DNA from: Methanothrix harundinacea 6Ac
GTDB lineage: Archaea; Halobacteriota; Methanosarcinia; Methanotrichales; Methanotrichaceae
Reading direction: 5' to 3'
NCBI RefSeq assembly: GCF_000235565.1
Contig: NC_017527.1
Location: 1,240,001 to 1,304,000, forward strand
Length of the DNA stretch: 64,000 bases
The notes below the pieces were generated by a model. The model made no database searches. It saw only the letters and a program-made list of their open reading frames with translations, and was not told where the DNA came from. Below, piece after piece: positions 12,197-55,166 of the stretch. The translations under genes and the position numbers were made by a program. The stretch's first letter is position 1, and the number at the start of each line of letters is the position of its first letter.

Positions 12197-13363
12197 ATGA
12201 AGATCGTCCACATGGCAGACTCCCACCTCGGCTTCTCCGCCTACGGCCGGGTCGACCGGTGGGGGAGAAACCAGAGAGAAGAGATGGTTTACCAGGGGTT
12301 TTCTAAGACCGTCGACAAGATAATCGACCTATCCCCCGACGCCGTCGTCCACGCCGGCGACGTCTTCCACCACGTCCGGCCCCGGATCAGGCCCCTCTAC
12401 GTCTTCCAGCAGAACCTGGAGCGGCTGGTGGAGGCCGGAATCCAGGTCGTCATCATCAGCGGAAACCACGACGCCCCCAAGAGCTACGCCTCCCTCTCTC
12501 CCTTCAGCCTCTTTGAGGGGATGGAGGGGGTCCAGATAGCTCACCGCTACCGGCACGAATGCTTCGAGGTAGGAGACCACCACTTCCACTGCATCCCCTT
12601 CTGCCTCAGCCCCGAGGACTACATGGAGGAGTTTAGAAAGATGCAGGAGCTCAGGGCGGAGATGTCGGGAGGAAGGGACGTCCTGGTGATGCACGGCCTG
12701 GTGGAGGCGCTCTGGGATAGGAGGCTGCGGACCGTCGGGGAGCACGAGATCGCCGAGAGCTTCCTGAAGGGGGACCTCACCTACATCGCCCTCGGCCACT
12801 ACCACGGCCAGGCCCGGGTGGCTAAGAACGCCTGGTACAGCGGCTCCGTCGAGTACTTCAGGTTCAGCGAAGCGAAGGACGAGAAGGGGATCCTCCTCGT
12901 AGACCTCGAATCCGGGAGGGTGGAGCAGATCCCCGTCCAGGAGAGGTACATGCTCGACCTCGACCCGATCGACTGCGGCGGCCTCTCCTCCCGGGAGGTG
13001 GAGGAGGGGATCTCCGCCGTCTGCCAACGTCGGGGGATAAAGGAGAAGATCGTCCGGCTCCGCCTCACAGACCTCTCGAGGGAGGCGTACAGGTCCCTCA
13101 GCCGGCGGATCGTCGGCGAGCTGAGGACCGAGGCCCTCCACCTCGAGATCATCCCGGAGTTCAGCGACGAGCCCTCCCTCCGGGTGACGGAGCCGGTGAG
13201 GGCGGAGGATCTGCCCCAGGAGTTCGAAACGTTCGTCGAGGGGGAGGCGGCCGGAGGCTCCATCCCCCCGGCGATCAGAGAGGAGGTCCTCGGCTACGGC
13301 ACTGAACTTCTCGCCCGGATCTCGGCGAAGAGGAGGACGGAGAGGTTGGATGCGCCTCAATAG
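12197..13363 (+). CDS. mre11: Mre11 DNA double-strand-break repair nuclease
   Basis: 388 aa starting MKIVHMADSHLGFSAYGR. All phosphoesterase metal-binding motifs are present in order: DSHLG, HAGDVFHHVRP, SGNHDAP, LVMHGLVE and LGHYHGQARV. It is a Mn-dependent 3'-5' exonuclease and ssDNA endonuclease that forms a 2:2 complex with Rad50 and clips blocked DNA ends. The stop overlaps the start of rad50 by 14 bp, consistent with translational coupling. A purine-rich GGGGGAAG lies about six bases before the ATG. Confidence 0.93.
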   Translation: MKIVHMADSHLGFSAYGRVDRWGRNQREEMVYQGFSKTVDKIIDLSPDAVVHAGDVFHHVRPRIRPLYVFQQNLERLVEAGIQVVIISGNHDAPKSYASLSPFSLFEGMEGVQIAHRYRHECFEVGDHHFHCIPFCLSPEDYMEEFRKMQELRAEMSGGRDVLVMHGLVEALWDRRLRTVGEHEIAESFLKGDLTYIALGHYHGQARVAKNAWYSGSVEYFRFSEAKDEKGILLVDLESGRVEQIPVQERYMLDLDPIDCGGLSSREVEEGISAVCQRRGIKEKIVRLRLTDLSREAYRSLSRRIVGELRTEALHLEIIPEFSDEPSLRVTEPVRAEDLPQEFETFVEGEAAGGSIPPAIREEVLGYGTELLARISAKRRTERLDAPQ

Positions 13364-41689: not shown

Positions 41690-41777
41690 GCGGGGGTCGC
41701 CAAGCCAGGTCAACGGCGCTAGGTTCAGGGCCTAGTCTCGCAGGAGTTCGTGGGTTCGAATCCCATCCCCCGCACCA
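41690..41777 (+). tRNA. tRNA-Leu (anticodon CAG), CCA encoded
   Basis: A class II tRNA: acceptor stem GCGGGGG pairs with CCCCCGC, discriminator A then encoded CCA (41775-41777). The anticodon arm is CTAGG-TTCAGGG-CCTAG with CAG at the anticodon position, and a long variable arm (TCTCGCAGGAGTTC region) precedes the T arm GTGGG-TTCGAAT-CCCAT. The 3' half from 41717 is duplicated at 50897, so it serves as the attachment site of an integrated element; the gene itself remains complete. Confidence 0.95.
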
Positions 41778-41802
41778 ATTTAACTTTACTGATATCGATT
41801 TT
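41717..41802 (+). repeat. attL: tRNA-proximal copy of the element's 86-bp direct repeat
   Basis: Identical to 50897-50982 except at 41781 (t/a) and 41783 (a/c). The first 64 bp (41717-41780) match exactly and comprise the anticodon arm to the CCA end of tRNA-Leu plus three bases; the remaining 22 bp continue as actttactgatatcgattt-like DNA on both sides. Integration within this homology leaves a working tRNA gene here. Confidence 0.93.
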
Positions 41803-42019
41803 GGTGTTTTCTACCAAACCCTTGATGTAATAACCTGTGCCTTTATCGTAAAAATAGTTAATCGCGAAATAGGTACAACCTTGTGCCTACATGATTCTGT
41901 ATTTATAAATCAAGCTGAATGTAACAACAAAGCCCCCTAATTAGAACTTTTAGAATAATAATTCAGAAATAATTTTAAAGGGCAGAGACAAAGGAGACAT
42001 AATGCTTAATCTCTTTTAT

Positions 42020-42200
42020 GTTAACACCTCCATCAGAAGGTAAGAGAAAAGAAGGAATCTCTCACCTTCTATCGGTGGGTGAAGAAGAGAAGCCCCACCG
42101 TTTGGAGGTCCGACAAAGGGTAAAGGATAGAACCCCCTTGTCGAAAACTGACGATCTAGCCCCTATTAGCCTCTGAAGATGTGGGGAACACCTTCGTCAT
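42020..42200 (-). ncRNA. Candidate multi-branched structured RNA of the integrated element
   Basis: Five helices can be drawn: P1 42026-42031 with 42104-42109 closing a two-hairpin branch; P2 42035-42046 with 42059-42070 (12 bp, one non-Watson-Crick position); P3 42073-42079 with 42094-42100 (7 bp); P4 42111-42120 with 42134-42143 (one non-WC position); P5 42149-42154 with 42194-42199, with an inner CCCC/GGGG pairing. The two exceptions (42042:42063 and 42117:42137) are A-C on the plus strand but G-U wobbles on the minus strand, pointing to minus-strand transcription. A TATA-like AAAATATAAAATC (minus, about 42205-42217) sits just upstream. Class not recognised. Confidence 0.5.
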
Positions 42201-42235
42201 CGATAGATTTTATATTTTTGCTCAAATCAGATGTT

Positions 42236-42436
42236 TTAATCTACCTCATAAGATAGGCTCTCATATCGGATCAAGATGCTTTCGGCTATAAGATTCAGAG
42301 CTTTATATATATTATCGTCAACGAATTGATTTAGAGTTAGAGATTTTAGAAAATTCTGGAATTCCTCACAATTCTCTAAAATTTGGGGCTTTGAATACAT
42401 CCCAAAAGTCCCGCCTTCTGTTTTTTTGACTTTCAT
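42236..42436 (-). CDS. Hypothetical element protein, 66 aa
   Basis: MKVKKTEGGTFGMYSKPQIL, then a mostly helical remainder (NCEEFQNFLKSLTLNQFVDD, LNLIAESILIRYESLSYEV). AGGAGA precedes the ATG and the start overlaps the preceding gene's stop (ATGA), so it is the last gene of a three-gene minus-strand operon. Family not recognised. Confidence 0.55.
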   Translation of the reverse strand: MKVKKTEGGTFGMYSKPQILENCEEFQNFLKSLTLNQFVDDNIYKALNLIAESILIRYESLSYEVD

Positions 42437-42672
42437 TTATAATTTCTCCTTAGTTTAATCTCTTCAATTGGCATAAATGCCGCGAACCCTAAATCAAGGT
42501 CTTCCCCCATCAACTTTTTTAAATTTATTAGATATTTTAATTTTGCATTTTCGTCGCTTAAACTTGCAGCAAAACCGAACTCTTCGGTTGAATCCTCTAC
42601 ATTTAGCAATTCATTTAGTTGGCGTCTATGTTCTTCTTTATCCAACTTGATCAACCCCGCAAACTTTATCAA
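42433..42672 (-). CDS. Hypothetical element protein, up to 79 aa
   Basis: The frame begins with TTG at 42670-42672; internal TTG codons at the seventh and tenth positions are alternatives, so the start is uncertain. It is helical and charged (LDKEEHRRQLNELLNVED, DENAKLKYLINLKKLMGEDL). The 5' end overlaps the upstream gene by about 35 bp and the 3' end overlaps the downstream gene by 4 bp, so all three are probably translated from one mRNA. Family not recognised. Confidence 0.5.
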   Translation of the reverse strand: MIKFAGLIKLDKEEHRRQLNELLNVEDSTEEFGFAASLSDENAKLKYLINLKKLMGEDLDLGFAAFMPIEEIKLRRNYK

Positions 42673-43252
42673 TATAAGCTAAAATCTCGGCTTCATTAGC
42701 CCGCCAGCCCCCTATTTGTTTTTCGAACTCATCAATAGTTTTTTGAAGATTCTGAATTTTTCTGGACTCATCCATGATGCCGACACGAAGATAACTGCTG
42801 GGGGGCAATGTTCCATCACCCAGGATTTCACGTCCCCTCTTAACGTATCCGGCTACCTGCTGACTATGCTTTTTTGTAATACGAATTTCCAGAGAATCCA
42901 ATTCCGCATTAAGTAAAAGCTGGTTACTGACCAACTGAGATTTTAACCATTCATACTCTGAAACACAGCATATTTCCGTATATTTTTGGCAAAACTTCTC
43001 TATTTGCAGAATCTTAGCAAGGTTCTTCTCTCTCTCAGCCTCAACTCTTTTAAATTTTTCAAAACTTTTAGAAGATTGGGGAGCTGCAATCTCGGGGTTT
43101 TTTCCAGAGAAGTCTACAGAATATTCTTGTTTCAATCCGTTCTTCAGGTTCCGATATTCCAGGGTTAATAACTTATCTCTCTCAGCTAAAGAAATACATT
43201 TATCACCCTCAATATTTCTGTGTCCATTATTATAATATTCTATAATTTGCAT
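42638..43252 (-). CDS. Hypothetical coiled-coil element protein, 204 aa
   Basis: First gene of the minus-strand operon at the left end of the element, with ATG 43250-43252 and an AT-rich promoter (CTTAAATATATC on the minus strand, about 43283-43295). Long amphipathic helices (FEKFKRVEAEREKNLAKILQ, LLLNAELDSLEIRITKKHSQ, IQNLQKTIDEFEKQIGGW) suggest a coiled-coil protein; a Cys-rich patch FCQKYTEICCVSEYEW lies in the middle. Divergently transcribed from the ribbon-helix-helix gene at 43375. Function unknown. Confidence 0.6.
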   Translation of the reverse strand: MQIIEYYNNGHRNIEGDKCISLAERDKLLTLEYRNLKNGLKQEYSVDFSGKNPEIAAPQSSKSFEKFKRVEAEREKNLAKILQIEKFCQKYTEICCVSEYEWLKSQLVSNQLLLNAELDSLEIRITKKHSQQVAGYVKRGREILGDGTLPPSSYLRVGIMDESRKIQNLQKTIDEFEKQIGGWRANEAEILAYIDKVCGVDQVG

Positions 43253-43374
43253 AGTCTTAAATATGTTTTGGGATATATAGATATATTTAAGTTTTTAAAT
43301 TGGTTTTTTGTTGGTATATTCCAAATTAGTTTTATGGATAAACTTATTATATACTTTATATATAAAAAAGAGCT

Positions 43375-43509
43375 ATGGTAAAAATAATCGTAAACGTCCC
43401 GGACAACCTTTTAGATAAGTTGGAATCGTATAAGACTAACAATTATTACACAAGTAGAAATGCTTTATTAGTTGAAGCTATCAGAGATTTTCTGAAAAAT
43501 GAGGGGTGA
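43375..43509 (+). CDS. Ribbon-helix-helix (CopG-like) DNA-binding protein, 44 aa
   Basis: MVKIIVNVPDNLLDKLESYK, then SRNALLVEAIRDFLKNEG. The N-terminal strand KIIVNVP followed by two helices with a S-R-N/S turn is the CopG/MetJ/Arc fold. Such proteins bind DNA as dimers and often repress their own operon or control copy number. The TGA overlaps the ribosome-binding region of the next gene. TATA-like atactttatatata about 30 bp upstream. Probably the element's master repressor (inference). Confidence 0.75.
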   Translation: MVKIIVNVPDNLLDKLESYKTNNYYTSRNALLVEAIRDFLKNEG

Positions 43510-43513
43510 TTTT

Positions 43514-43867
43514 ATGAGTAACAAAGACGAGATGATTAAACAAGCCATAAAAGAATTTTTAAAAGATACAAAAACTATGGCGGTAGAGTTCAACGCCTTC
43601 CCCGGTCAAAACATTGAAGAAGTACCTATTGAAGAACTGGTTCGGTTCAGTCTCTCAATGCAGACCTTTTGGCTATCCAAACTCTTGAAAGACGGAGAGA
43701 GCATTAACAAAAATTTAATAACTTCTCTCCGTCTTATAAATGAGATGTCTAAATCGGTGATTGGAGTAAGGCAACAGATAACGAAGGACACAAAGCTCCA
43801 AGTCAACGACCCTATGAAAGCCCTTCAAGACTCTTTAAAAAAGAGCATGAAAAAGGAGGTTAAATAA
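43514..43867 (+). CDS. Hypothetical element protein, 117 aa
   Basis: MSNKDEMIKQAIKEFLKDTK; the ATG at 43514 has GAGGGGTGA five bases upstream. Largely helical (VPIEELVRFSLSMQTFWLSK, NKNLITSLRLINEMSKSVIG) with a basic C-terminus (SLKKSMKKEVK). It follows the ribbon-helix-helix gene by 4 bp and precedes the next by 2 bp. No family recognised. Confidence 0.65.
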   Translation: MSNKDEMIKQAIKEFLKDTKTMAVEFNAFPGQNIEEVPIEELVRFSLSMQTFWLSKLLKDGESINKNLITSLRLINEMSKSVIGVRQQITKDTKLQVNDPMKALQDSLKKSMKKEVK

Positions 43868-43869
43868 AA

Positions 43870-44175
43870 ATGAGACCACCATATACGTTTAACAACGTTT
43901 TGCGGGACTTAAAATTAATATTGCATGAAAATGATAATTATTGCGATATTTTATTTAACAACCTGGAGAACGGGTTTATCAAAATTGAATCCATGCAAGA
44001 GCTGAGGAACGACCCAAAAACATTAACCTTGGCTATCTACCAGTTGATTATGGGTGATTTGTTAAACATATTCCTTTTAATGGACTCCATGATCTCAGAA
44101 GATGAAGAGGAAGAGATAGAGGTAGAAGAGGAGGAGGATTCTCCCCAATATTCCGGTGGTTTTTTTGATTATTAA
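43870..44175 (+). CDS. Hypothetical element protein with acidic tail, 101 aa
   Basis: MRPPYTFNNVLRDLKLILHE; helical body (LTLAIYQLIMGDLLNIFLLM), then an almost uninterrupted acidic run (SEDEEEEIEVEEEEDS) and a short aromatic end (YSGGFFDY). AAGGAGG eight to nine bases upstream is a strong ribosome-binding site. Acidic tails of this kind often mimic DNA or bind basic partners; the following basic 32-aa peptide could be one (speculation). Confidence 0.65.
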   Translation: MRPPYTFNNVLRDLKLILHENDNYCDILFNNLENGFIKIESMQELRNDPKTLTLAIYQLIMGDLLNIFLLMDSMISEDEEEEIEVEEEEDSPQYSGGFFDY

Positions 44176-44288
44176 ACGAATAATATATAAGCCTACCTAT
44201 TTTTTAGTATCTACTTATGAGGTTGGGCCGGTCCATCGGACTTTGTTAGGAAAAGGTTCTTATTTTAAAATCTCAAGAGGGTTTGACT

Positions 44289-44387
44289 ATGAATAATAAA
44301 AATAAACATCCTAAAGATAAGGGTAAAGAGAAAAGGCCAAAACGCCAGAGAAAGAGATCAGATAGAGATTTTAAAATAATAGTTTAG
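44289..44387 (+). CDS. Very basic 32-aa peptide
   Basis: MNNKNKHPKDKGKEKRPKRQ and then RKRSDRDFKIIV. Lys/Arg make up nearly half of the residues. AAGAGGG seven to ten bases upstream. The small size and composition make the call tentative, but the frame starts and stops between well-supported genes with its own spacing. Could bind nucleic acid or the acidic protein encoded just upstream. Confidence 0.35.
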   Translation: MNNKNKHPKDKGKEKRPKRQRKRSDRDFKIIV

Positions 44388-44447
44388 TTCGATAGAAAAG
44401 CTTATATACTAGAAGGTATATGTATGCTTACTTAGGAGGTAAATGAT

Positions 44448-44588
44448 ATGTTAATTCATGATAAAGTTTGCTCTTTTAGAGTCAGTCCCGGACTAGGGAC
44501 AAAGATAGAGAACAGAATAAAGGAAATGGAAATGACTCCATCGGAATACTACCGTTATCTAATAAGAAGGGATTTAGGAGAGATTTAA
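44448..44588 (+). CDS. Ribbon-helix-helix-like protein, 46 aa
   Basis: MLIHDKVCSFRVSPGLGTKI with helix ENRIKEMEMTPSEYYRYLIR and RRDLGEI. A strand (CSFRVSP) followed by two helices and a T-P-S-E-Y turn fits a short RHH protein. AGGAGG is eight bases before the ATG and a TATA-like cttatatact lies about 48 bp upstream. The stop is 1 bp from the ASCH gene start, so the two form an operon. Confidence 0.65.
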   Translation: MLIHDKVCSFRVSPGLGTKIENRIKEMEMTPSEYYRYLIRRDLGEI

Positions 44589-44589
44589 A

Positions 44590-44976
44590 ATGATTTTTAC
44601 TTTGGACCATATACTGAAAATTTTAGATGGAACTAAAACTATGACGCGACGGTCTGTTAAAGGGCGACATTATAAAGTTGATCAAGATTATGCGGTTCAA
44701 CCGCATAGGAATAAGCCGTCTATGTTTAGGATAGCCATAACAGGTAAAAAGCTTGAACGACTTGGAGATATCACCCCAGAGGATGTAAAACTAGAAGGCT
44801 ATGGTTCAAAAGAGGAGTTTATAGAGGCGTGGAGATCTGTTAATGGGGGGTATAATCCCCAGGCTGAGGTTATTGCTTATACTTTTAAACTAGACCCCGT
44901 TTATAAAGCAATAGGAATAGGAGAGATGAGAAAACTTAAAAAAATTGAAAGGGTTTGTGGGAACAAACCAGTTTAG
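44590..44976 (+). CDS. ASCH domain protein
   Basis: 128 aa. MIFTLDHILKILDGTKTMTR is the ASCH start (I-L-x-G-x-K-T-x-x-x-R), MFRIAITGKKLERLGDITPE continues the PUA-like barrel, and EEFIEAWRSVNGGYNPQAEV is the usual C-terminal helix and loop. ASCH domains bind RNA or modified nucleosides; some are ribonucleases or amidohydrolases. On mobile elements they may process host RNA. Coupled to the RHH gene just upstream. Confidence 0.8.
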   Translation: MIFTLDHILKILDGTKTMTRRSVKGRHYKVDQDYAVQPHRNKPSMFRIAITGKKLERLGDITPEDVKLEGYGSKEEFIEAWRSVNGGYNPQAEVIAYTFKLDPVYKAIGIGEMRKLKKIERVCGNKPV

Positions 44977-45086
44977 GAGAACAAAGCTTATGGTGGAGGA
45001 ATACCAAACGCTTAAGTAGAGATTCTTCTTTTACTATTTAAGCTTTTCGGTTATTCCTTCTTAAATCTATTAGGAGGAATAATAAT

Positions 45087-46844
45087 ATGGATTTAACAAG
45101 TTTAACCCAAAATGAATTGGTAGAGAGAAAAATATATGGCTTTCATAAGCCATCTAAAAAGCAACTAGAGGAAGAAAAACTTCAAGCTGAAATGGAATAT
45201 TTAGATGAACTAATGCGTGAAGAAATTAGAGCGGAACTTGTAAAAGAATTTGAACAAAAGGCTAAAATAGAAAAGCTATTAGCTAAACAAGATAAAAGGT
45301 CTGCTACAGAGATAACATTAGATTTAATTTTAAATAGCAATGTTGAATTATGGCAAAGTGAGGGAGAAGGTTACATAACATTTGAACTAGACGGCCATCT
45401 TGAAAACCATCCCATTAGATCTAAAAAAGGAAGGTTGTACCCTGCTAAAGTTTATTATGAGTCTGAAGGTAAAGCCCTTAACAAAAACGCTCTTGAGTTG
45501 GTTCTAACAGAACTTGAAAATCGGGCTTTGTTTAATGGGAAAGAGTATCCTGTCTTCTTACGTGTCGGTAAAGATAATGACGGCTACATTTATCATGATC
45601 TTTGTAATGAAAATTGGGAAGTTGTTAGAATTGGGGCTAATGGTGTTTGGCTTGATCAGAATCCGCCCATCAAGTTTATCCGTAGCGATAATATGAAAGC
45701 CCTACCTTATCCTAAATGGTGCACCATTGATGATGATGATCCTAAACTTAGAGATTATATCGACGATCTACTTAATGACCTCTGGATGATCACAAACCTA
45801 GAGAATGACTACAAAGGCCAGGTCTTCTTTTGGAGTGCGTTATTAGGGGCTCTAAAGCCAGATAAACCATATCCTGTATTGTTTGTTACCGGAGAAAAAG
45901 GGTCTGCTAAATCTAGTTTTTCCCGTATATTCGGTTTAACCATAGACCCCAAGCACGTCCAATTAGTGAAAGCTCCTACAAAAGAACAAGACCTATATGT
46001 AGCGGCAAAAAACAATTGGATTCTAAGCTTTGATAACTCTTCTGGAATACCCGCTCCTATAGCTGACGCTATGGCATCTATAGCCACTGGTGGAGGTTTT
46101 ACGTCTAGAGAGTTGTACTCTGATAATACTGAAAAGACCTATAGAGCCGACCGGCTACAGTTGATTAATGGTATCGGGAACCTAACCCATAGACCGGACC
46201 TATTAGATAGAGCCCTACATATTCATCTTAAGCATATTCCGCAACATAAAAGGCTGACAGAACGTGAAATTAACAAAATTTTTGAAGAGTTGCATCCCAA
46301 GCTGTTATCTCTGCTATATGCTACCATATCAAACGGCTTATACTTCCGGGACCAAGTTTGTTTAGAATGTCTTCCCAGGATGGCAGACTTTGCGTTATGG
46401 ATATGTGAATGCCTAGAGGATAACAGGTATCTATGGCAGTTTTGCATGGGGGAGGAATTTTTAGACGTTCTCGAAGGTTCTATCTCTGATGCATGGGTTG
46501 AAATCATGGAGACAGACGCTTTTACTAAGAGTTTAGCTGAATACATCACGAAAAATCCAGATGCAACGGTAATTCAAACACAAGTATTTTATGAAGAAAT
46601 TTTAGATGCTGCTGGCTTAGATAAGTATCATGTGCCTGATGGATTCCCGAAAGCTCCAAAGTCTTTATGGTCTTTTATTGAACGTTCTGCACCAGTAATT
46701 AGAGAGGCTTTAAAGGTTGATATCCAACGGTCTGTTAAAGAAAATGTTGTGTATATAATTATCAATAGACTAGAAGATCAACCGCCGAAAGAACAAAGGC
46801 AAACCGAAATAACGGTAAATCCTGAGTCAAATGAGCCAAAATAA
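45087..46844 (+). CDS. D5-like/SF3-type replication ATPase
   Basis: 585 aa. An N-terminal Lys/Glu-rich helical part of about 75 residues, a middle region (GEGYITFELDGHLENHPIRS) and then the ATPase: PYPVLFVTGEKGSAKSSFSR (Walker A G-x-x-G-S-A-K-S), NNWILSFDNSSGIPAPIADA (Walker B-like, sensor), and RPDLLDRALHIHLKHIP. This matches the D5/poxvirus-like helicases that archaeal and phage elements use to start replication. The start ATG is preceded by AGGAGGAATAAT. A putative iteron origin lies just downstream. No archaeo-eukaryotic primase motif is evident. Confidence 0.8.
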   Translation: MDLTSLTQNELVERKIYGFHKPSKKQLEEEKLQAEMEYLDELMREEIRAELVKEFEQKAKIEKLLAKQDKRSATEITLDLILNSNVELWQSEGEGYITFELDGHLENHPIRSKKGRLYPAKVYYESEGKALNKNALELVLTELENRALFNGKEYPVFLRVGKDNDGYIYHDLCNENWEVVRIGANGVWLDQNPPIKFIRSDNMKALPYPKWCTIDDDDPKLRDYIDDLLNDLWMITNLENDYKGQVFFWSALLGALKPDKPYPVLFVTGEKGSAKSSFSRIFGLTIDPKHVQLVKAPTKEQDLYVAAKNNWILSFDNSSGIPAPIADAMASIATGGGFTSRELYSDNTEKTYRADRLQLINGIGNLTHRPDLLDRALHIHLKHIPQHKRLTEREINKIFEELHPKLLSLLYATISNGLYFRDQVCLECLPRMADFALWICECLEDNRYLWQFCMGEEFLDVLEGSISDAWVEIMETDAFTKSLAEYITKNPDATVIQTQVFYEEILDAAGLDKYHVPDGFPKAPKSLWSFIERSAPVIREALKVDIQRSVKENVVYIIINRLEDQPPKEQRQTEITVNPESNEPK

Positions 46845-47017
46845 TTTAGCTCAGGAAAATTTTTTGTTAAAATCGCTATCTGTTGGCTTATCCTGAGTCA
46901 AATGAGTCATATGAGCCAAATTTTAAACTTGGAATTTTTGAGATATAATTATATGATATAATATAGAAGAGAAAAGACAAAGTAGAAGATTTGACTCATT
47001 TGACTCATTTGGCTCCT
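46821..47017. repeat. Iteron-like TGAGTCAAA repeats flanking an AT-rich core: putative replication origin
   Basis: The motif TGAGTCAAATGAGCC occurs at 46823-46837 and, with an added TGAGTCA step, at 46894-46917. An inverted set lies at 46990-47014 (ttgactcatttgactcatttggct), so 46894-46920 and 46990-47014 form a large inverted repeat. Between them is a very AT-rich core (about 46925-46975) that includes atataattatatgatataatata. Position just after the replication ATPase is typical of a plasmid origin. Confidence 0.5.
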
Positions 47018-47546
47018 CCAATCATGTAGCCAAGAGCGGCCTAATGTTGGACGATTGAAAAATTGACTAAACCTTAAGCTTGAAGTCCGGCATTTTGGAA
47101 TTAGGAAAAATTTTCCTAATTGTTTTAGAAAACAAATACCTCGAAATGAGGTAATTATTTTGTAAAATTAAAAGTATATACTCTATATATACTGTTTTAC
47201 CTTGTATATATCTTTTAGATATACAATATAATTAAATATTAAAGATTATGTTAAAGTCGTTTGTATATATGCGACGACCATAAGGTTAAAATAAGCCAGA
47301 AATAAATAAAAAAAATATAAATTACTTTTATTTAACTAGATGACGATCAAAAAGCTTTAGCTGTCAAAGCTCGCCAGCGACCACCGAAAAGATTTTAATA
47401 AACATCATAAAATTTAGAATGATAAAATGGAATCGATATCAGTAGAGGGTGTTAAGCTATAATCCAAGGGTCTATTTGCCGATCAAGTTTTTACTAATAA
47501 TAAGAAGTAGAAACTTATATATGGTAAAGCCCCACCAGTATAAGAT
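47018..47546. other. AT-rich non-coding segment with palindromes
   Basis: No credible gene. It contains a 23-bp palindrome (47099-47121, arms aattaggaaaa/ttttcctaatt) and a hairpin at 47137-47153 (tacctc/gaggta), followed by long TATA-rich stretches. These may be part of the replication origin or terminators of the ATPase gene and promoter of the recombinase at 47547. Confidence 0.55.
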
Positions 47547-48119
47547 ATGATAACTAAGTTGATTGAGGTCGAAGAGTTCCATAGGCTTATCTCAGTACTT
47601 CATGGTCGAGACCGCTTAATAGTTGAACTTCTAGCAAGTACCGGATTAAGGGTCTCTGAGTTAGTCCAGTTGAAGAGGGGCGATATAGACCTTGAGGCTC
47701 AACTTATCCGCTTAAACGCCACCAAAACTAAAACACAAACCTATAGAGAGGTAATAATTCCAGCTCCATTAGTTCCAGATCTTAAACGGTACATGGATCA
47801 ACTTGAAGGTGAGTTCCTATTCCCAGGTCAAGGTAAACCCCACGTAACCAGCCAGAGAATAAGGCAGATAGTCCATGATGGAGCTGTAAAGGCTGGAATC
47901 CAAGTCGCCTATCGTGATAACACCAAAGGCAAAAGGAATCTATGGAAGGTTACGCCCCATACATTACGGAGCCTCCATGCAATCCATAGTCTGGACTGTG
48001 GAATTCCCATCTCTGACCTTCAAAGCCAGTTAGGACATAGTTCTTTAGCTTCAACCTCTAGGTACTTGGAGGCGGGGGTTAACCACAGAAGAAAATCATA
48101 TAAAAAATTTAAATTTTAG
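47547..48119 (+). CDS. Tyrosine recombinase, catalytic domain only
   Basis: 190 aa. Catalytic residues in order: Arg in LLASTGLRVSELVQLKRGDID, Lys region (TKTKTQTYREVIIP), H-x-x-R in VTPHTLRSLHAIHS, GHSS in LQSQLGHSSLASTSRYLEAG with the nucleophile Tyr. The usual N-terminal core-binding (SAM-like) domain is missing: the protein begins right at the catalytic domain, as in short archaeal Xer-like or plasmid resolvase recombinases. It may resolve dimers of the element or assist the integrase. Confidence 0.85.
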   Translation: MITKLIEVEEFHRLISVLHGRDRLIVELLASTGLRVSELVQLKRGDIDLEAQLIRLNATKTKTQTYREVIIPAPLVPDLKRYMDQLEGEFLFPGQGKPHVTSQRIRQIVHDGAVKAGIQVAYRDNTKGKRNLWKVTPHTLRSLHAIHSLDCGIPISDLQSQLGHSSLASTSRYLEAGVNHRRKSYKKFKF

Positions 48120-48124
48120 ATTTC

Positions 48125-48559
48125 TTACGATTTTCTAACAAAATTATACTCCCAATAGATCAAGTATTCAATATAGTACTCTCTGGTACCCTTAGGCACC
48201 TCATAAACAACCTTTCCAGAAACAACATCGCCATCTTGAATCGTTTTAATCGGCAAAGTGTCAATCGAGGGATCAAATGTTGCATGAGCGCATGTATATA
48301 GAACGTCATTAACGTAAGCATCAAAATTGTATGGAGAAACGTCGAATTTTGAATAACCATGGTTTTCAAGCTCGATATCAACAACCATATATACATAACC
48401 AGGTTTTGCCTGCCAAGGATTATTTCCAAAACCAATTTTATCGGTTGTGTAAGAACTATAATCCCAGAGAATATACTTGTCATCTCCAACTGCGGAACCA
48501 CACATAATCAAAAACATCAATAGAGCAATCCCTAAGCTTTTTACCGTTTCTGGTATCAT
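48125..48559 (-). CDS. Exported DUF4352-like protein
   Basis: 144 aa. Signal peptide (MIPETVKSLGIALLMFLIMC, cut near GSAVGDD). The rest is a beta-sandwich typical of DUF4352/TRAPP-like surface proteins: YVYMVVDIELENHGYSKFDV, FDAYVNDVLYTCAHATFD, DGDVVSGKVVYEVPKGTREYYI. Function unknown. AGGTGAC precedes the ATG; 12 bp separate it from the upstream exported-protein gene. Confidence 0.65.
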   Translation of the reverse strand: MIPETVKSLGIALLMFLIMCGSAVGDDKYILWDYSSYTTDKIGFGNNPWQAKPGYVYMVVDIELENHGYSKFDVSPYNFDAYVNDVLYTCAHATFDPSIDTLPIKTIQDGDVVSGKVVYEVPKGTREYYIEYLIYWEYNFVRKS

Positions 48560-48571
48560 ATTTTATGTCAC

Positions 48572-48967
48572 CTACCAAGTTATATGGTCTGCATACGAAA
48601 CTTTAGCACCGAGGGCAAGTTCTGACTCATCCGGATAATACACTCCTATAATGTAATTATAGATCCCTTCACCAATTTCTTTTCCGGGCGGATCATCGGG
48701 GCTGAATGTCTTTACCAGTCTCACGAAGTTATCACCTAATTCTTTTCCGTATTTCTCCGAAGTAGACCAACCAACAATAAGAGCGAGAGAAAGAGTATAA
48801 TCATCCTGGATAATCGCTGCATCCTGAACTTGGGAATATCCCTCTATAGAGATAATAGCTAATTCTTTTGCTTCTTCACTTACTATAGGTGCATTCTCTC
48901 CGGCAACCATACCACAAGTAAGTAGGCAGCCCAAAAGAATGGATGCTATTGCAGTTTTCAACATCAT
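48572..48967 (-). CDS. Exported hypothetical protein, 131 aa
   Basis: Signal peptide MMLKTAIASILLGCLLTCGM (cut near VAGENA), with a strong AGGAGGAGC SD six bases from the ATG. The mature part is mixed (SIEGYSQVQDAAIIQDDYTL, NFVRLVKTFSPDDPPGKEIG) and ends in a hydrophilic domain. It resembles no family I recognise. Precedes the DUF4352-like gene in the same operon. Confidence 0.6.
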   Translation of the reverse strand: MMLKTAIASILLGCLLTCGMVAGENAPIVSEEAKELAIISIEGYSQVQDAAIIQDDYTLSLALIVGWSTSEKYGKELGDNFVRLVKTFSPDDPPGKEIGEGIYNYIIGVYYPDESELALGAKVSYADHITW

Positions 48968-49112
48968 TTTGCTCCTCCTAGGATTACAATTTTGAATTGA
49001 TCATTTCATTATAAAAGAAGGTTTCGGCAGGGTTATCTCAAAGGTGTCACCTTTAGCCACTGTAGCGATCTTGCACATTGATTTAGATGTTGTTCAAGTT
49101 CTATAAAGAATA

Positions 49113-49766
49113 TTAGATTATTTCTAATATACTTCTTTCTCGAATCGTCTCATTTTCTCCAAAAGCAAATGATGCTAATAAATCATATAGCGGTTTTTGT
49201 ATAACTTTATCATCATCTGCTCCATACCATTCATACGCCATCATATCATAAGTATTATCAGAAGAAAATATAGCCCTTATACCTATAAAACTGTTATTAT
49301 ACTCTGGTTTAATCCAAACAATAACCCAATTTAAATTATATTGATCCATAAAAAACGTTGCATATTCTTCACCATCCGGTTTAATGCTTAATCCAGTTCC
49401 TCCGCTAAATGCGGTACCAATATTTATGATATTCTTTTTATAATATTCACAAATCGCATCATTTACATACCACGGTGTCAGGTCTTTAATGACTCTCCAG
49501 TTGACTTCCTCAGGTTTTACATGTTGGAGAAAACCCCTTTGATCATGAATAAAATAATAAATAATATTATCTAACTCTTCATTTGATAAGTAAACCTTAT
49601 CTATTCTTATGGCTGATATGTTATCTGATATTATAGTTTTGTTTGTATTATTTTCTGCTATATACCAACCATCGGGGATAGAAATAGAAAAGTTCCCATC
49701 TAGGATATCTTCAGCTGTCCCTAGTCCTATAAAGAGGAATAATACGGCTAAGTATAGTTCCTTCAT
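49113..49766 (-). CDS. Exported hypothetical protein, 217 aa
   Basis: Signal peptide MKELYLAVLFLFIGLGTAED. The mature region is Asn/Asp/Tyr/Ile-rich beta structure (NFSISIPDGWYIAENNTNKT, YNLNWVIVWIKPEYNNSFIG) resembling PsbP/lipoprotein-like sandwich folds seen in methanogen surface proteins. No family assigned. About 145 bp lie between it and the next exported-protein gene, so it has its own or a shared upstream promoter. Confidence 0.6.
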   Translation of the reverse strand: MKELYLAVLFLFIGLGTAEDILDGNFSISIPDGWYIAENNTNKTIISDNISAIRIDKVYLSNEELDNIIYYFIHDQRGFLQHVKPEEVNWRVIKDLTPWYVNDAICEYYKKNIINIGTAFSGGTGLSIKPDGEEYATFFMDQYNLNWVIVWIKPEYNNSFIGIRAIFSSDNTYDMMAYEWYGADDDKVIQKPLYDLLASFAFGENETIRERSILEII

Positions 49767-49839
49767 AGTATGTCCAAAGAAGGCTATACTATGTATATTT
49801 TATGGCTATTTTTTAAAATGATGATGCCCTGATAAAATA

Positions 49840-50715
49840 TCACAACACTAAATACTCCTCATACATCTTCCTCTTAGTTTCATTCGCGACGTGCGCATAC
49901 CTCAAAGTCGTTCTAATATCCTTATGCCTTAATAATTCTTTGATTATTCTAATGTCGCAACCTTTAGCAACCATAATTGTGGCTGGACTATGCCTACTAA
50001 AAACGTGAACCGCTCCAGGCTTCTTTATTCCAGCCTTCTTTTTATAACCCATAAACATCCTATGAATATCCCCTCTATCCCAAAGGTTGAAGTTATCAGT
50101 GAAGAATAACGGGTATTTACCCTCGACTTCTATTTTTGGTCGAATATTCAAGTAGATCCTGAGAGTTTCTACGCATTCATCATTCAAAAGAGCTATGTCG
50201 TCCCTACCCCCTTTTGTTTCCCGAAGCCTTATAGTCCTTTTGTCTAAATCTAAGTCATTATCCTCAAGCTTGGATAATTCCCCTGATCTAAGACACCCAT
50301 AGAAAAGGGTTTTAAGCATAGCTAAATGCTTAATGTTGCTGCAGACACTAAAAATATTTAATACATCATTTTCATCAAAATAATATGGTAGGCTGTCATT
50401 TCTGGTCAGTATTTTTGTAGACCAATCAATGTTTTTCATCTCAAAATATTTTTTTAAGGCGAAAACCGTGTTGTTAACATGGGATTTAGAAGCCCCCTGA
50501 TCAAGCAAAAGGTCTCTATAATCATCTGCTTTTTTCGTACAAGGTTCATTTGGTCGCGAATACTCAATAAATTTGCCTACCCTTCCACTGTAGAGACTGA
50601 TGGTTTGATAACGATAACCTTGGTTAGTTAGAAAACGTTTGTAGTTTTCTACAATAGTTTCAAGTTTGTGCTCCTCTGCTGTTTGGACGTTCCAATTGAC
50701 TTTTGCTTTTCCCAT
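49840..50715 (-). CDS. int: Tyrosine recombinase (integrase) of the element
   Basis: 291 aa with both domains. N-terminal core-binding helices (LETIVENYKRFLTNQGYRYQ, VNNTVFALKKYFEMKNIDWS) precede the catalytic domain: Arg in LKTLFYGCLRSGELSKLEDN, Lys in RLRETKGGRDDI, the Arg box HVFSRHSPATIMVAKG, and LLRHKDIRTTLRYAHV ending with the nucleophile Tyr. The first box residue is Val rather than the usual His (V-F-S-R-H), and the Gly of GHKD is Arg; both are tolerated variants elsewhere. Its position next to attR marks it as the integrase. Confidence 0.9.
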   Translation of the reverse strand: MGKAKVNWNVQTAEEHKLETIVENYKRFLTNQGYRYQTISLYSGRVGKFIEYSRPNEPCTKKADDYRDLLLDQGASKSHVNNTVFALKKYFEMKNIDWSTKILTRNDSLPYYFDENDVLNIFSVCSNIKHLAMLKTLFYGCLRSGELSKLEDNDLDLDKRTIRLRETKGGRDDIALLNDECVETLRIYLNIRPKIEVEGKYPLFFTDNFNLWDRGDIHRMFMGYKKKAGIKKPGAVHVFSRHSPATIMVAKGCDIRIIKELLRHKDIRTTLRYAHVANETKRKMYEEYLVL

Positions 50716-50817
50716 ATCTCATCCAACCCTCAAATTAGGTACAACCTTTTATCACAGGATTGGTAGAGCATCCAATATGTTCAGACAAATTGGTATCTGT
50801 AGAGACTTAAAACCCTA

Positions 50818-50893
50818 AGTTACCACCGTTACGGATAGTTACCACCGCTACGGATAGTTGCCACCGTTACGGATAGTCGCCACCATTACGGAT
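50818..50893. repeat. Four 19-bp imperfect tandem repeats abutting attR
   Basis: Units at 50818, 50837, 50856 and 50875, each of the form agtTaccaccgttacggat with one to three changes. They lie on the element side, 4 bp before the attR repeat and just upstream of the integrase gene, which is where integrase arm-binding or excisionase sites are found. Confidence 0.8.
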
Positions 50894-50896
50894 AGT

Positions 50897-50982
50897 CGCT
50901 AGGTTCAGGGCCTAGTCTCGCAGGAGTTCGTGGGTTCGAATCCCATCCCCCGCACCAATTAACCTTTACTGATATCGATTTT
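50897..50982 (+). repeat. attR: distal copy of the element's 86-bp direct repeat
   Basis: Matches 41717-41802 with two mismatches; contains the 3' half of tRNA-Leu with its encoded CCA. The 5' half of the tRNA is absent here, so this copy cannot make a tRNA. Confidence 0.93.
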
Positions 50983-51868: not shown

Positions 51869-54796
51869 CTACAAAATAGAATAATTCACCATATTTTTAT
51901 AGAACTTTTCAGCATACTCCTTAACCATCCTCTTTGAGCTGAAATGCGACCCTGTATTCATAGTTGCTTCTTTCATCACATTGACCCAACTCCTAGGCAC
52001 ACCTCCGTCATCCACCCTATAGTAGAGAGGTACAACTTCCTTTTCCAGTATATCGTATATAGTGGCTGCATCCTCGTCATCCCTGACACTCTCGTCGATA
52101 TCCTTAGCTCCCTCGAAGCCCCATCCGTTCTTGCCGTTATATCCCTCAACCCACCAACCACCGAATATGCTGATCTGTGGAACACCGTTGAGTGATGCCA
52201 TCATCCCACTAGTTCCACATGCTTCCATTGAAGGTATTGGATTGTTTAACCACAAGTCCACACCACGTAGCATATACTGAGCAATGTATTGATCGTAGTC
52301 TTCTACGAATGCAATCCTTCCCCCAAAGTCCTTGTTTGAGGCCACATTTAAGATCTGTTGTAAGAGGATCTTTCCATACTGGTCATCGGGATGGGCTTTG
52401 CCTGCAAAAATGATCTGGACCGGCCTGTAAGGGTCTGTTAAAATTTTCCTGAGTCTTTCCAAATCTCGGAATATAAGTGTCGCCCTATTGTAAGAAGCGA
52501 ATTGGTGTACAAAACCTATAGTAAGAACATTCGGGTCGAGCATAACACCAAAAGGCGTAATGGTCTTTGGATTTGGTTCGTTACACGAGTACCAGTTCTT
52601 CCTAGCCCTCTCTGTGATTTCGTTAAGTAGCTTCAATTTCATACGTCGATGATGCTTCCACAAGACCGCGTCAGGAATCTCGTCCATCAGCTCCCAAATC
52701 CGGGGGTCGTCATGTTCTTCCAACCATCCCCTACCAAGATATTTGTTGAAAATTTTGTTTCCTAAATCACGATCTATCCAAGTGGGAACGTGGATTCCGT
52801 TGGTTACGTTATCAATTGGAAGTTCGTCATTAGGATAGTCGGACCAGAAGTTGCGCCACATATCTATAACTATTTCCTGATGTCGTTTACTGACGCAATT
52901 GCGATAGGCGGACATACGCAGGGCGAAAGCGGTCATGTCAAAGCCGCTGGCCGGGTCTCTGGGATCGATCCCGAGTTTGAAGAAATCCTCACAACTTATT
53001 CCAAGGAGTCGGATATACGTCCTAAAATATTTATCCATCAGCTGGAACGAAAATTTATCCTGATTTGCAGGAACCAGTGTATGGGTAGTGAAAAGCGTTG
53101 TCTTCTTAACCACTTCTTCAGCTTCCTCACGTCTGCTGCCCGTTTCAATCCGTTCTCTTAGTCTCTCTAGGATGGCGAAGGCAGGTTGACCCTCGTTAAG
53201 GTGGATTATTGAGGGTTCAATCCCCAAAGCTTTCAATACCCTGACTCCACCGATGCCTAGGACGATATCTTGCCTCAGCTTCTGTTCAGAGTCCCTGGTA
53301 TGAATTCTGTTCGATATTATCTGGTCTTCGGGTTCGTTGGCGTCGACAGCAGTATCCATAAGGTAGAGATCGGCTCTTCCTACTTGGACCTTCCAAACCG
53401 CGACATATATCGGTTTTTCTAATGCTGAAATCTCCACAAGGAGGGGGTCTCCGTTTTCGTCCAGTAGCTTCTTAACAGGAGCGTTCTCTCTCTCTAACCT
53501 CTCACAGGCACCTGCTTGCCATCCGTCGGATGTGATCCTTTGGAGGAGATACCCCTCTGGGTACATGAAGCCAACTCCAACAATGGGAACCCCGAGATCG
53601 CTGCACTCCTTCAGATAGTCTCCCGCCAGAAAACCAAGACCATCCGCATAGACTGGAAGGGCATGATGCAGACCATACTCTGCAGAAAAGTATGCAATCT
53701 TACAATCCTTTGGATCTGCAACGTTAGTTTTGAACCATCCGCTTGCAGGGTCCATTCCTCTCTCAAACTTGGCCATAACTGCATCGTAGTACCTCAAAAA
53801 ACGGGGGTCCATAGACGCGAGCTTGAAGACGCCGTCGTCGAGCTCGTGCATCATCTTGACGGGGTTATGGCCGTTTCGGCTCCAAGCCGCCCGACCGCCA
53901 AGCATTATGAAAAGCTCTCTTCCTTCGGGATGCCAGCTCCACCACAGGTTGTAGGCTAGATTGCCCAAATTACGTATCCTATCAGGAATATGCGTAAAAG
54001 TCTGCTTCAAGGTATAACGTGGAGACAGTCGGGCATTATTCTCAATAACAATGCTTCTGACTTTAAAATTACTATTGTGAGCAAGTACTACCTCACCGCG
54101 CACGTTCAGTGCCCACTTCATCGGTATTTGTTTTCGATCTAATTTCATTTGCTCTTGGATATAAGAGTAAATGCCATCCATTGTGATATCGCCATTATTG
54201 TTAGCAGCACCCCAACTTCGAATACCTTCAACTAAGTGCTTTGTAAATATACCATTATTCTCTGATTCACTCTCCCAAGATTGCTGAATACTAGTTGAAG
54301 AGGTTAGGATGTAAGTACCGCTCGTTTCTTTAAACAGCGATGTTAGTTGTTCGTCGACGCTACCGCGGCTAAGTTCGTCACCAGCCAAACCACTATAGCA
54401 GCAATCTAAAATTATAATCACATTATTAACATATGAATCATCTATAAATCCCTTTATATTTTCTATTGGAATAGATGTTGATTTTAAAAGACTTATATCG
54501 GTATTAGCGGTAGCAAGGTGAAGCTTTCCAGCACGGTCTTGTTTACCGTGGCCCGAATAATAAATCAAAACTAAATCGTATTTACTGGCTTTTTTGAAGA
54601 CTTTTTCCATCTCTTTCATAATTTCGAAATTATCACAATTCTCTAACGGCAAAGTTTCAGAGAAATTTCCATAATCCTTGGAAATGAGCACTTCGTTGAA
54701 ATCTTTTACATCATTTACAGGACACTTCAAGTTATGCAAGTTAGAGTCCTGGAATTGACTACTAGCAATCAAAACAGCGTAACGATTTTCATTCAT
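51869..54796 (-). CDS. Caspase-like (C14) protease fused to a degenerate alpha-glucan phosphorylase
   Basis: 975 aa. Residues 1-245 form a caspase/metacaspase-like domain: MNENRYAVLIASSQFQDSNL, the His in LIYYSGHGKQD (His83) and the Cys in IIILDCCYSGLAGDE (Cys133), so the dyad looks intact. Residues about 265-975 are a complete alpha-glucan phosphorylase fold of the short (TIGR02094-type) class: LGNLAYNLWWSWHPEGRELF, IAYFSAEYGLHHALPVYADG, NVTNGIHVPTWI, IFAGKAHPDDQYGK. However, Met866 stands where the PLP-binding Lys should be (EACGTSGMMASLNG), GFVHQFASYNRA replaces GFARRFATYKRA, and NEGQPAF and PANQD have lost their His. The phosphorylase is probably not catalytic. Start overlaps the upstream membrane-protein gene. 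Confidence 0.85.
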   Translation of the reverse strand: MNENRYAVLIASSQFQDSNLHNLKCPVNDVKDFNEVLISKDYGNFSETLPLENCDNFEIMKEMEKVFKKASKYDLVLIYYSGHGKQDRAGKLHLATANTDISLLKSTSIPIENIKGFIDDSYVNNVIIILDCCYSGLAGDELSRGSVDEQLTSLFKETSGTYILTSSTSIQQSWESESENNGIFTKHLVEGIRSWGAANNNGDITMDGIYSYIQEQMKLDRKQIPMKWALNVRGEVVLAHNSNFKVRSIVIENNARLSPRYTLKQTFTHIPDRIRNLGNLAYNLWWSWHPEGRELFIMLGGRAAWSRNGHNPVKMMHELDDGVFKLASMDPRFLRYYDAVMAKFERGMDPASGWFKTNVADPKDCKIAYFSAEYGLHHALPVYADGLGFLAGDYLKECSDLGVPIVGVGFMYPEGYLLQRITSDGWQAGACERLERENAPVKKLLDENGDPLLVEISALEKPIYVAVWKVQVGRADLYLMDTAVDANEPEDQIISNRIHTRDSEQKLRQDIVLGIGGVRVLKALGIEPSIIHLNEGQPAFAILERLRERIETGSRREEAEEVVKKTTLFTTHTLVPANQDKFSFQLMDKYFRTYIRLLGISCEDFFKLGIDPRDPASGFDMTAFALRMSAYRNCVSKRHQEIVIDMWRNFWSDYPNDELPIDNVTNGIHVPTWIDRDLGNKIFNKYLGRGWLEEHDDPRIWELMDEIPDAVLWKHHRRMKLKLLNEITERARKNWYSCNEPNPKTITPFGVMLDPNVLTIGFVHQFASYNRATLIFRDLERLRKILTDPYRPVQIIFAGKAHPDDQYGKILLQQILNVASNKDFGGRIAFVEDYDQYIAQYMLRGVDLWLNNPIPSMEACGTSGMMASLNGVPQISIFGGWWVEGYNGKNGWGFEGAKDIDESVRDDEDAATIYDILEKEVVPLYYRVDDGGVPRSWVNVMKEATMNTGSHFSSKRMVKEYAEKFYKNMVNYSIL

Positions 54797-55166
54797 ATTC
54801 AGACGTCCCTAAAAACTCGCTTGCTTTTTTGAACGTCTCTTCTATCTGATCCGAACGCATGTTTTTCGCACTTATAGATAATTCAGCTCCATCACTTCGA
54901 TGTATGTTCAATTCCAAGGACGATTCTCTTTCAAAATATGATTTTAACACGCCAAATAATGCAGCTAAGGCTCCAAATTTTATAGAATATAAAAGAATTA
55001 CTCCTAGCGTGATCGGTTCTCCCTTAGCCTTTTCGTTTATTGAACCTTCTGGCAATTTTGCATCTATATCAGTCTCTCTAGAGATCGACTTGAATAAATC
55101 TGCCGCTAATACCTGGAGATCTTCATCGACAAGCTCCTCGGATGAAACAACAAGTTTTACAGCCAT
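54789..55166 (-). CDS. EACC1-like small membrane partner of the caspase fusion
   Basis: 125 aa. Soluble N-terminus (MAVKLVVSSEELVDEDLQVL, AADLFKSISRETDIDAKLPE), one hydrophobic helix (TLGVILLYSIKFGALAALFG, about residues 53-72) and a C-terminal strand-turn-strand (SSLELNIHRSDGAELSISAK) with the x-D-G-x turn typical of EACC1, the effector-associated constant component found before caspase, trypsin and other effectors in NTP-dependent conflict systems. Its 3' end overlaps the fusion gene by 8 bp, so they are translated together. EACC1 is expected to tether or switch the effector. The family call rests on size, topology and context. Confidence 0.6.
   Translation of the reverse strand: MAVKLVVSSEELVDEDLQVLAADLFKSISRETDIDAKLPEGSINEKAKGEPITLGVILLYSIKFGALAALFGVLKSYFERESSLELNIHRSDGAELSISAKNMRSDQIEETFKKASEFLGTSEYE

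Follow-up and report, generated by a model that had tools for sequence, protein, structure and literature searches.

A 9.2-kb element in the tRNA-Leu(CAG) gene of Methanothrix harundinacea 6Ac: a probable integrative plasmid without capsid genes, whose integration module also occurs in small tailed viruses

What kind of element lies in the tRNA-Leu(CAG) gene of Methanothrix (Methanosaeta) harundinacea 6Ac, and how may it have entered? The genome of the strain includes 2,559,043 bp plus the 11,991 bp of plasmid pH6Ac, sizes which have already been published (PMC3349665). The window, that is the whole stretch of 64,000 nucleotides analysed (contig NC_017527.1), carries a segment of 9.2 kb with a G+C content of 36.5%, versus about 64% around it. 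The borders of the segment are formed by the following features, numbered as in the window:

41690..41777, + strand: tRNA-Leu(CAG), with 3' half plausibly supplied by the element (attL; ARAGORN, direct repeat)
41717..41802, + strand: attL copy of the 86-bp direct repeat (repeat comparison)
41719..41735, + strand: predicted crossover core, anticodon stem-loop CTAGG-TTCAGGG-CCTAG (intersection of the att repeats of related elements and proviruses)
41803..41982, + strand: left-end arm, resembling one end of the ~13-kb provirus L237 and a scar in genome G012 (alignment)
50818..50896, + strand: 19-bp iteron, 4.2 tandem copies abutting attR (repeat finding)
50897..50982, + strand: attR, displaced tRNA-Leu(CAG) 3' half plus tail (repeat comparison, genome matches)

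A reading made from the sequence only had proposed that the 3' half of the tRNA gene and 25 further bases recur at 50897 with two mismatches, and that the DNA in between is AT-rich. Both statements hold. The two copies of 86 nt are identical at 84/86 positions (98%) and spaced by 9,180 bp; the tRNA portion shows no differences, and both mismatches fall in the tail 3' of the tRNA. The G+C content drops sharply from about 0.64 outside the repeats to 0.33-0.40 inside. Such identity of two 86-mers 9 kb apart is far beyond chance. The other long matches to the att block in the genome are other tRNA-Leu genes only, and this resemblance might hint at a chance or ancestral duplication of a tRNA next to unrelated AT-rich DNA. 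The identity, however, includes the non-tRNA tail, the borders in composition are sharp, and the integrase family described below is tied to such sites, so that this explanation is extremely improbable. Site-specific integration into tRNA-Leu(CAG), as originally suggested, is supported by the repeat, by the composition, by the intactness of the integrase, and by the occurrence of three independent elements with a like layout in other tRNA-Leu genes.

The tails tell something of the history of the site. The attR tail (AACCTTTACTGATATCGATTTTAT) is nearer than the attL tail to the flank of the tRNA-Leu(GAG) gene of the same genome (TTACCTTTCTTGATAGCGATTTTAT), which fits the notion that attR is the original right side and that today's 3' half of the tRNA came with the element. 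The two mismatches thus suggest that attR may be the old host flank, but the argument would be weaker if the tRNA-Leu(GAG) flank is itself the scar of an element, as a survey of the tail motif suggests. Within 10-40 nt of the tRNA T-arm, TATCGATTTT occurs 20 times in 50 genomes, versus 0 for the reversed control, and 15 of the 18 complete tRNAs flanked by the motif are tRNA-Leu (Gln 2, Ser 1). Since about 5 tRNA-Leu genes per genome are estimated, motif bearers are a small minority, and the motif is better read as carried by elements of this kind than as a general host trait.

The integrase gene lies next to attR:

49840..50715, - strand: Int1, 291-aa XerA-like integrase with a family-wide HxxxR box II (profiles, alignment, model)

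The ORF is intact and lies outside the att sites, 181 bp from attR. The residues R143, K168, H237, R241, H264 and Y273 are invariant in 19 relatives, and the mean pLDDT of the AlphaFold model is 88. The nearest solved structures are the XerA proteins of T. acidophilum and P. abyssi (species names partly after PMC8371274). Int1 is nevertheless no chromosomal XerA by the NCBIfam profile (NF040815), as it scores 162.7 bits, below the curated cut-off of 220. Box II reads H-x-x-x-R-H in 19/19 aligned relatives (H-V-F-S-R in Int1), and has one residue more than box II of XerA (HxxR). Like XerA and the classical integrases of pNOB8 and SNJ2, Int1 has a XerA-like fold and sequence and a gene that stays intact after integration; in contrast to pNOB8, where the signature is R..YxxR..Y, all 19 members carry HxxxR. 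A tRNA target is common to elements of the suicidal SSV type as well, but there the integrase gene is split and the signature is R..KxxR..Y, whereas Int1 is not split and lacks KxxR. That the integrase is not interrupted, unlike in SSV-type elements, had been correctly noticed; this is the ordinary, classical condition among archaea and nothing unusual (PMC8371274). With direct repeats, one of which completes the tRNA gene, and an intact integrase gene outside att, the element conforms to the classical (type II) archaeal elements.

The family of Int1 is narrowly distributed. At E <= 1e-50 it is found in 18 of 237 genomes of the class, all Methanotrichaceae, and at a laxer cut-off in 22 of 50 genomes of the order. 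Throughout these 50 genomes its members usually reside beside tRNA-Leu genes, with all five anticodons represented, and sometimes beside tRNA-Arg, -Ser or -Pro genes. Matches in metagenome-assembled genomes labelled Dehalococcoidia, Alkalihalobacillus and Thermoclostridium have been taken as mis-binned contigs, rather than as host range. As far as searched, the mobile-element family is confined to acetate-using methanogens. No earlier description of it was found in a literature search limited to open-licence papers.

Three further elements share the layout seen at tRNA-Leu(CAG), with the integrase divergent from attR, and their repeats can be compared with those of two proviruses:

G012 element: tRNA-Leu(GAG), repeat of 64 bp, spacing 9,376 bp
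G011 element: tRNA-Leu(TAA), repeat of 92 bp, spacing 9,103 bp
G030 element: tRNA-Leu(TAA), repeat of 58 bp, spacing 8,255 bp
Provirus L238: tRNA-Pro, repeat of 50 bp, spacing 14,146 bp
Methanothrix concilii provirus (genome G015): tRNA-Ser(GCT), perfect repeat of 107 bp, spacing 15,423 bp

In the 6Ac, G012 and G030 elements and in provirus L238 the repeat starts at, or at most 2 bp from, the 5' base of the anticodon stem; in the G011 element it spans the whole tRNA. The repeat of the M. concilii provirus extends instead over the promoter side of the gene, and the last part of the tRNA that it includes is the anticodon stem, up to its 3' base. The anticodon stem-loop is the sole overlap of the two kinds of repeat, and the crossover is therefore placed there: strands are likely exchanged within 41719-41735, and the 7-base loop TTCAGGG is the likely overlap. 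The repeats of family members thus locate the crossover without experiment. The SSV1 integrase likewise exchanges strands at the anticodon loop (PMC8371274). Behind the attR of the G012 element (L054, G012:C43, 11078-11300), about 140 bp resemble the left end of the 6Ac element, as though a tandem integration of two elements had been followed by the loss of one.

The element also carries a replication module and a second recombinase:

45087..46844, + strand: Rep, 585-aa D5/SF3-like helicase, lacking the Prim-Pol domain that its relatives on plasmids have (pH6Ac homology, fold matches)
47431..47444, - strand: 14-mer of the att tail, TACTGATATCGATT, repeated exactly but inverted at 103 bp upstream of Int2 (sequence match)
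47547..48119, + strand: Int2, tyrosine recombinase of 190 aa made up of the catalytic domain only, putative resolvase (Pfam Phage_integrase, 6e-27)

Rep is 37% identical over 483 residues to the replicase of pH6Ac (G000:C1, 11,991 bp), the plasmid of the same strain. Homology covers the helicase region; the plasmid replicase (1,124 aa), in contrast to Rep, carries an N-terminal Prim-Pol domain fused to the helicase, and neither Int1 nor att was found on pH6Ac. Relatives on plasmids or plasmid-sized contigs (pH6Ac, G011:C24, G011:C18) are 1,062-1,348 aa long, and a Prim-Pol match was obtained for both plasmid-type relatives tested. G011:C24 (10,121 bp) is probably circular, given its 127-bp terminal overlap. 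Two further Rep proteins, which share a contig with Int1 (L088, L089), also lack the Prim-Pol part. Among viral contigs, a single-protein search with Rep gave nothing, whereas alignments did find relatives. The protein had been called a D5-like ATPase. The Rep model was matched by Foldseek to vaccinia D5, MPXV E5, NrS-1 and the SaPI5 primase-helicase, but its pLDDT of 63 is too weak for more than a fold class, and Pfam D5 gave no match; the name stands at the level of fold only. No replication origin was identified in the element.

Int2 is 50% identical to a recombinase encoded on G011:C18, a plasmid-like contig of 12.2 kb which also encodes Rep, and may serve in the resolution of multimers. 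Allowing one mismatch, the att-tail 14-mer has three sites in the genome, all inside the element; the inverted copy near Int2 is suggestive only, since among 2000 shuffles 18 also yielded some 14-mer in common with att. The iterons, Int2 and the inverted copy had all escaped the sequence-only reading. Elsewhere in the 6Ac genome (G000:C2, 60965-61324) lies a fragment that has 41% identity to Int2 and is interrupted by an in-frame stop; it is perhaps the remnant of another element.

The remaining genes are mostly small:

42236..42436, - strand: ORF, 66 aa (ORF list, Pfam scan)
42433..42672, - strand: ORF, 79 aa (ORF list, Pfam scan)
42638..43252, - strand: ORF, 204 aa (ORF list, Pfam scan, PADLOC)
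43375..43509, + strand: 44-aa ribbon-helix-helix-like repressor (PHROG transcriptional repressor, E 6.5e-4)
43499..43867, + strand: ORF, 122 aa (ORF list, Pfam scan)
43870..44175, + strand: ORF, 101 aa, acidic C-terminus (ORF list, Pfam scan)
44448..44588, + strand: 46-aa ribbon-helix-helix or NikA-like ORF (weak Pfam match, E 0.006, below cut-off)
44590..44976, + strand: ASCH-domain-like protein, 128 aa (Pfam ASCH, E 9.7e-4, just below cut-off; phrog_874, E 1e-8)
48125..48559, - strand: secreted DUF4352 protein, 144 aa (profile match)
48572..48967, - strand: predicted secreted protein, 131 aa (signal-like N-terminus)
49113..49766, - strand: predicted secreted protein, 217 aa (homolog in L238, phmmer E 8e-13)

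That ribbon-helix-helix regulators are present is plausible for two short ORFs, though both matches are weak. The statement that most genes lack relatives was too strong: relatives exist for both recombinases, the helicase, the ASCH protein and one secreted protein, while nearly half of the small genes have none. PADLOC found no match inside the element. Readings as a casposon or as a conjugative element were discarded, as Cas1 and conjugation genes are absent from the Pfam and PHROG scans.

Relatives of Int1 also reside in small tailed viruses. Four IMG/VR contigs, 14.4-14.9 kb long, are of this kind, as are a GTDB contig of 14.3 kb and the provirus of M. concilii: in them an Int1 relative is accompanied by genes for terminase, portal, scaffold and major capsid protein. 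The part of the GTDB contig that was read stops short of its scaffold and capsid genes. For two members of this set the gene families were confirmed. Int1 and the integrase of the tailed provirus L237 share 61% identity. The left 230 bp of the element can be aligned, also at 61%, to that end of L237 at which virus sequence comes after the 5' half of a tRNA-Leu. There (12650-12760) the 5' half of the tRNA-Leu(CAA) breaks off shortly behind the anticodon stem, and the adjoining virus sequence fails to rebuild the tRNA. Provirus L238 (IMGVR_UViG_3300040744_000214) resembles the 6Ac element: its integrase, of the Int1 family, is likewise located next to attR, it encodes a helicase like Rep, and a homolog of the secreted protein at 49113-49766 lies between its portal and scaffold genes; relatives of this protein occur in 3 other genomes. 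The M. concilii provirus (G015:C1, 1,685,936-1,701,465) also encodes an integrase of the family. Unlike the 6Ac element, both proviruses, which measure about 14-15 kb, have genes for terminase, portal, scaffold and capsid; in the window, no profile for terminase, portal or capsid matched. A virus-like contig of Methanocrinis natronophilus (L244, G011:C13, 14,527 bp) has the same capsid genes without Int1, and has small genes in common with plasmid contigs of that genome.

The four capsid-less elements, the 6Ac one included, measure 8.3-9.4 kb and have a common layout but different cargo. The G030 element shares the integrase (72-80%), the replicase and a 137-aa protein with the small tailed viruses, the G012 element the integrase and a different ATPase, the G011 element only the integrase; the latter element would, in our own reading of its sequences, carry restriction-type genes. 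One integration module is common to small tailed viruses and to elements that lack a capsid, the cargo of which is of plasmid, virus-like or restriction type.

Int1, both ends and one secreted protein recur in proviruses, as would be expected too of a viral satellite or of a gutted provirus. According to the first view, capsid-less elements of 8-9.5 kb would be packaged by the tailed Methanotrichaceae viruses of about 14-15 kb with the same integrase family. The likeness of both element ends and of Int1 to L237, the homolog of the secreted protein inside L238, and the existence of other elements of this size with the integrase and replicase of the proviruses but not their capsid genes speak in favor of it. 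On the other hand, no terminase of this virus family was found in the 6Ac genome, neither a small-terminase-like nor a capsid-remodelling gene was recognised in the element, and Rep and Int2 are nearer to plasmids than to viruses, which makes a satellite unlikely. A former small tailed provirus that had lost its structural genes would account for the ends, for the position of the integrase and for the secreted gene shared with L238. This origin is quite unlikely: remnants of structural genes are missing and the genes are intact, Rep and Int2 are of plasmid type, and elements of like size without a capsid are found four times, their contents differing.

The element is best explained as a capsid-less integrative plasmid in tRNA-Leu(CAG), with an integration module in common with small tailed viruses, a reading to which we assign a probability of roughly two in three. 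Its att repeats, intact genes, family of sites and module homology are matters of observation, and the following cycle may be envisaged. Int1 would recombine attP of the element with the tRNA gene at a point plausibly inside the anticodon stem-loop, and the element would restore the 3' half of the tRNA. The element should be excisable, since int1 is intact and outside att, presumably as a circle; this would be replicated by the D5-like helicase using a host primase, and kept monomeric by Int2. The Int1 family may represent a site-specific integration tool for acetate-using methanogens, archaea that are genetically difficult.

An empty site in related genomes had been proposed as a check. No exact empty site was found in the genus genomes compared: tRNA-Leu(CAG) is occupied by other elements in G009, G012 and probably G010, the flank is masked in G013, and otherwise the tRNA is not beside the same gene. 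Nor was an excised form of the element encountered. Conserved core genes lying between the repeats in relatives, which would have spoken against an insertion, were not encountered. The element read at tRNA-Leu(CAG) in locus L045 encodes a 173-aa protein and a 327-aa integrase, and is unrelated to the one in 6Ac. In G009, G012 and G010 (loci L045, L043 and L047), tRNA-Leu(CAG) is followed by this element or by the sequence of its left end, and so is tRNA-Leu(GAG) in G011 and G013 (loci L029 and L036). Unrelated elements thus use the same tRNA genes, which are shared integration hotspots.

Just right of the element, at 51869-55166 on the - strand, a caspase domain of the EACC1-associated type, above the NCBIfam cut-off, is fused to an alpha-glucan phosphorylase, and adjoins a short ORF with a weak EACC1 match. 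Further on, the segment 56934-60989 of the window is syntenic but inverted in a relative (G012:C8), which indicates that the region right of the tRNA-Leu gene has been rearranged.
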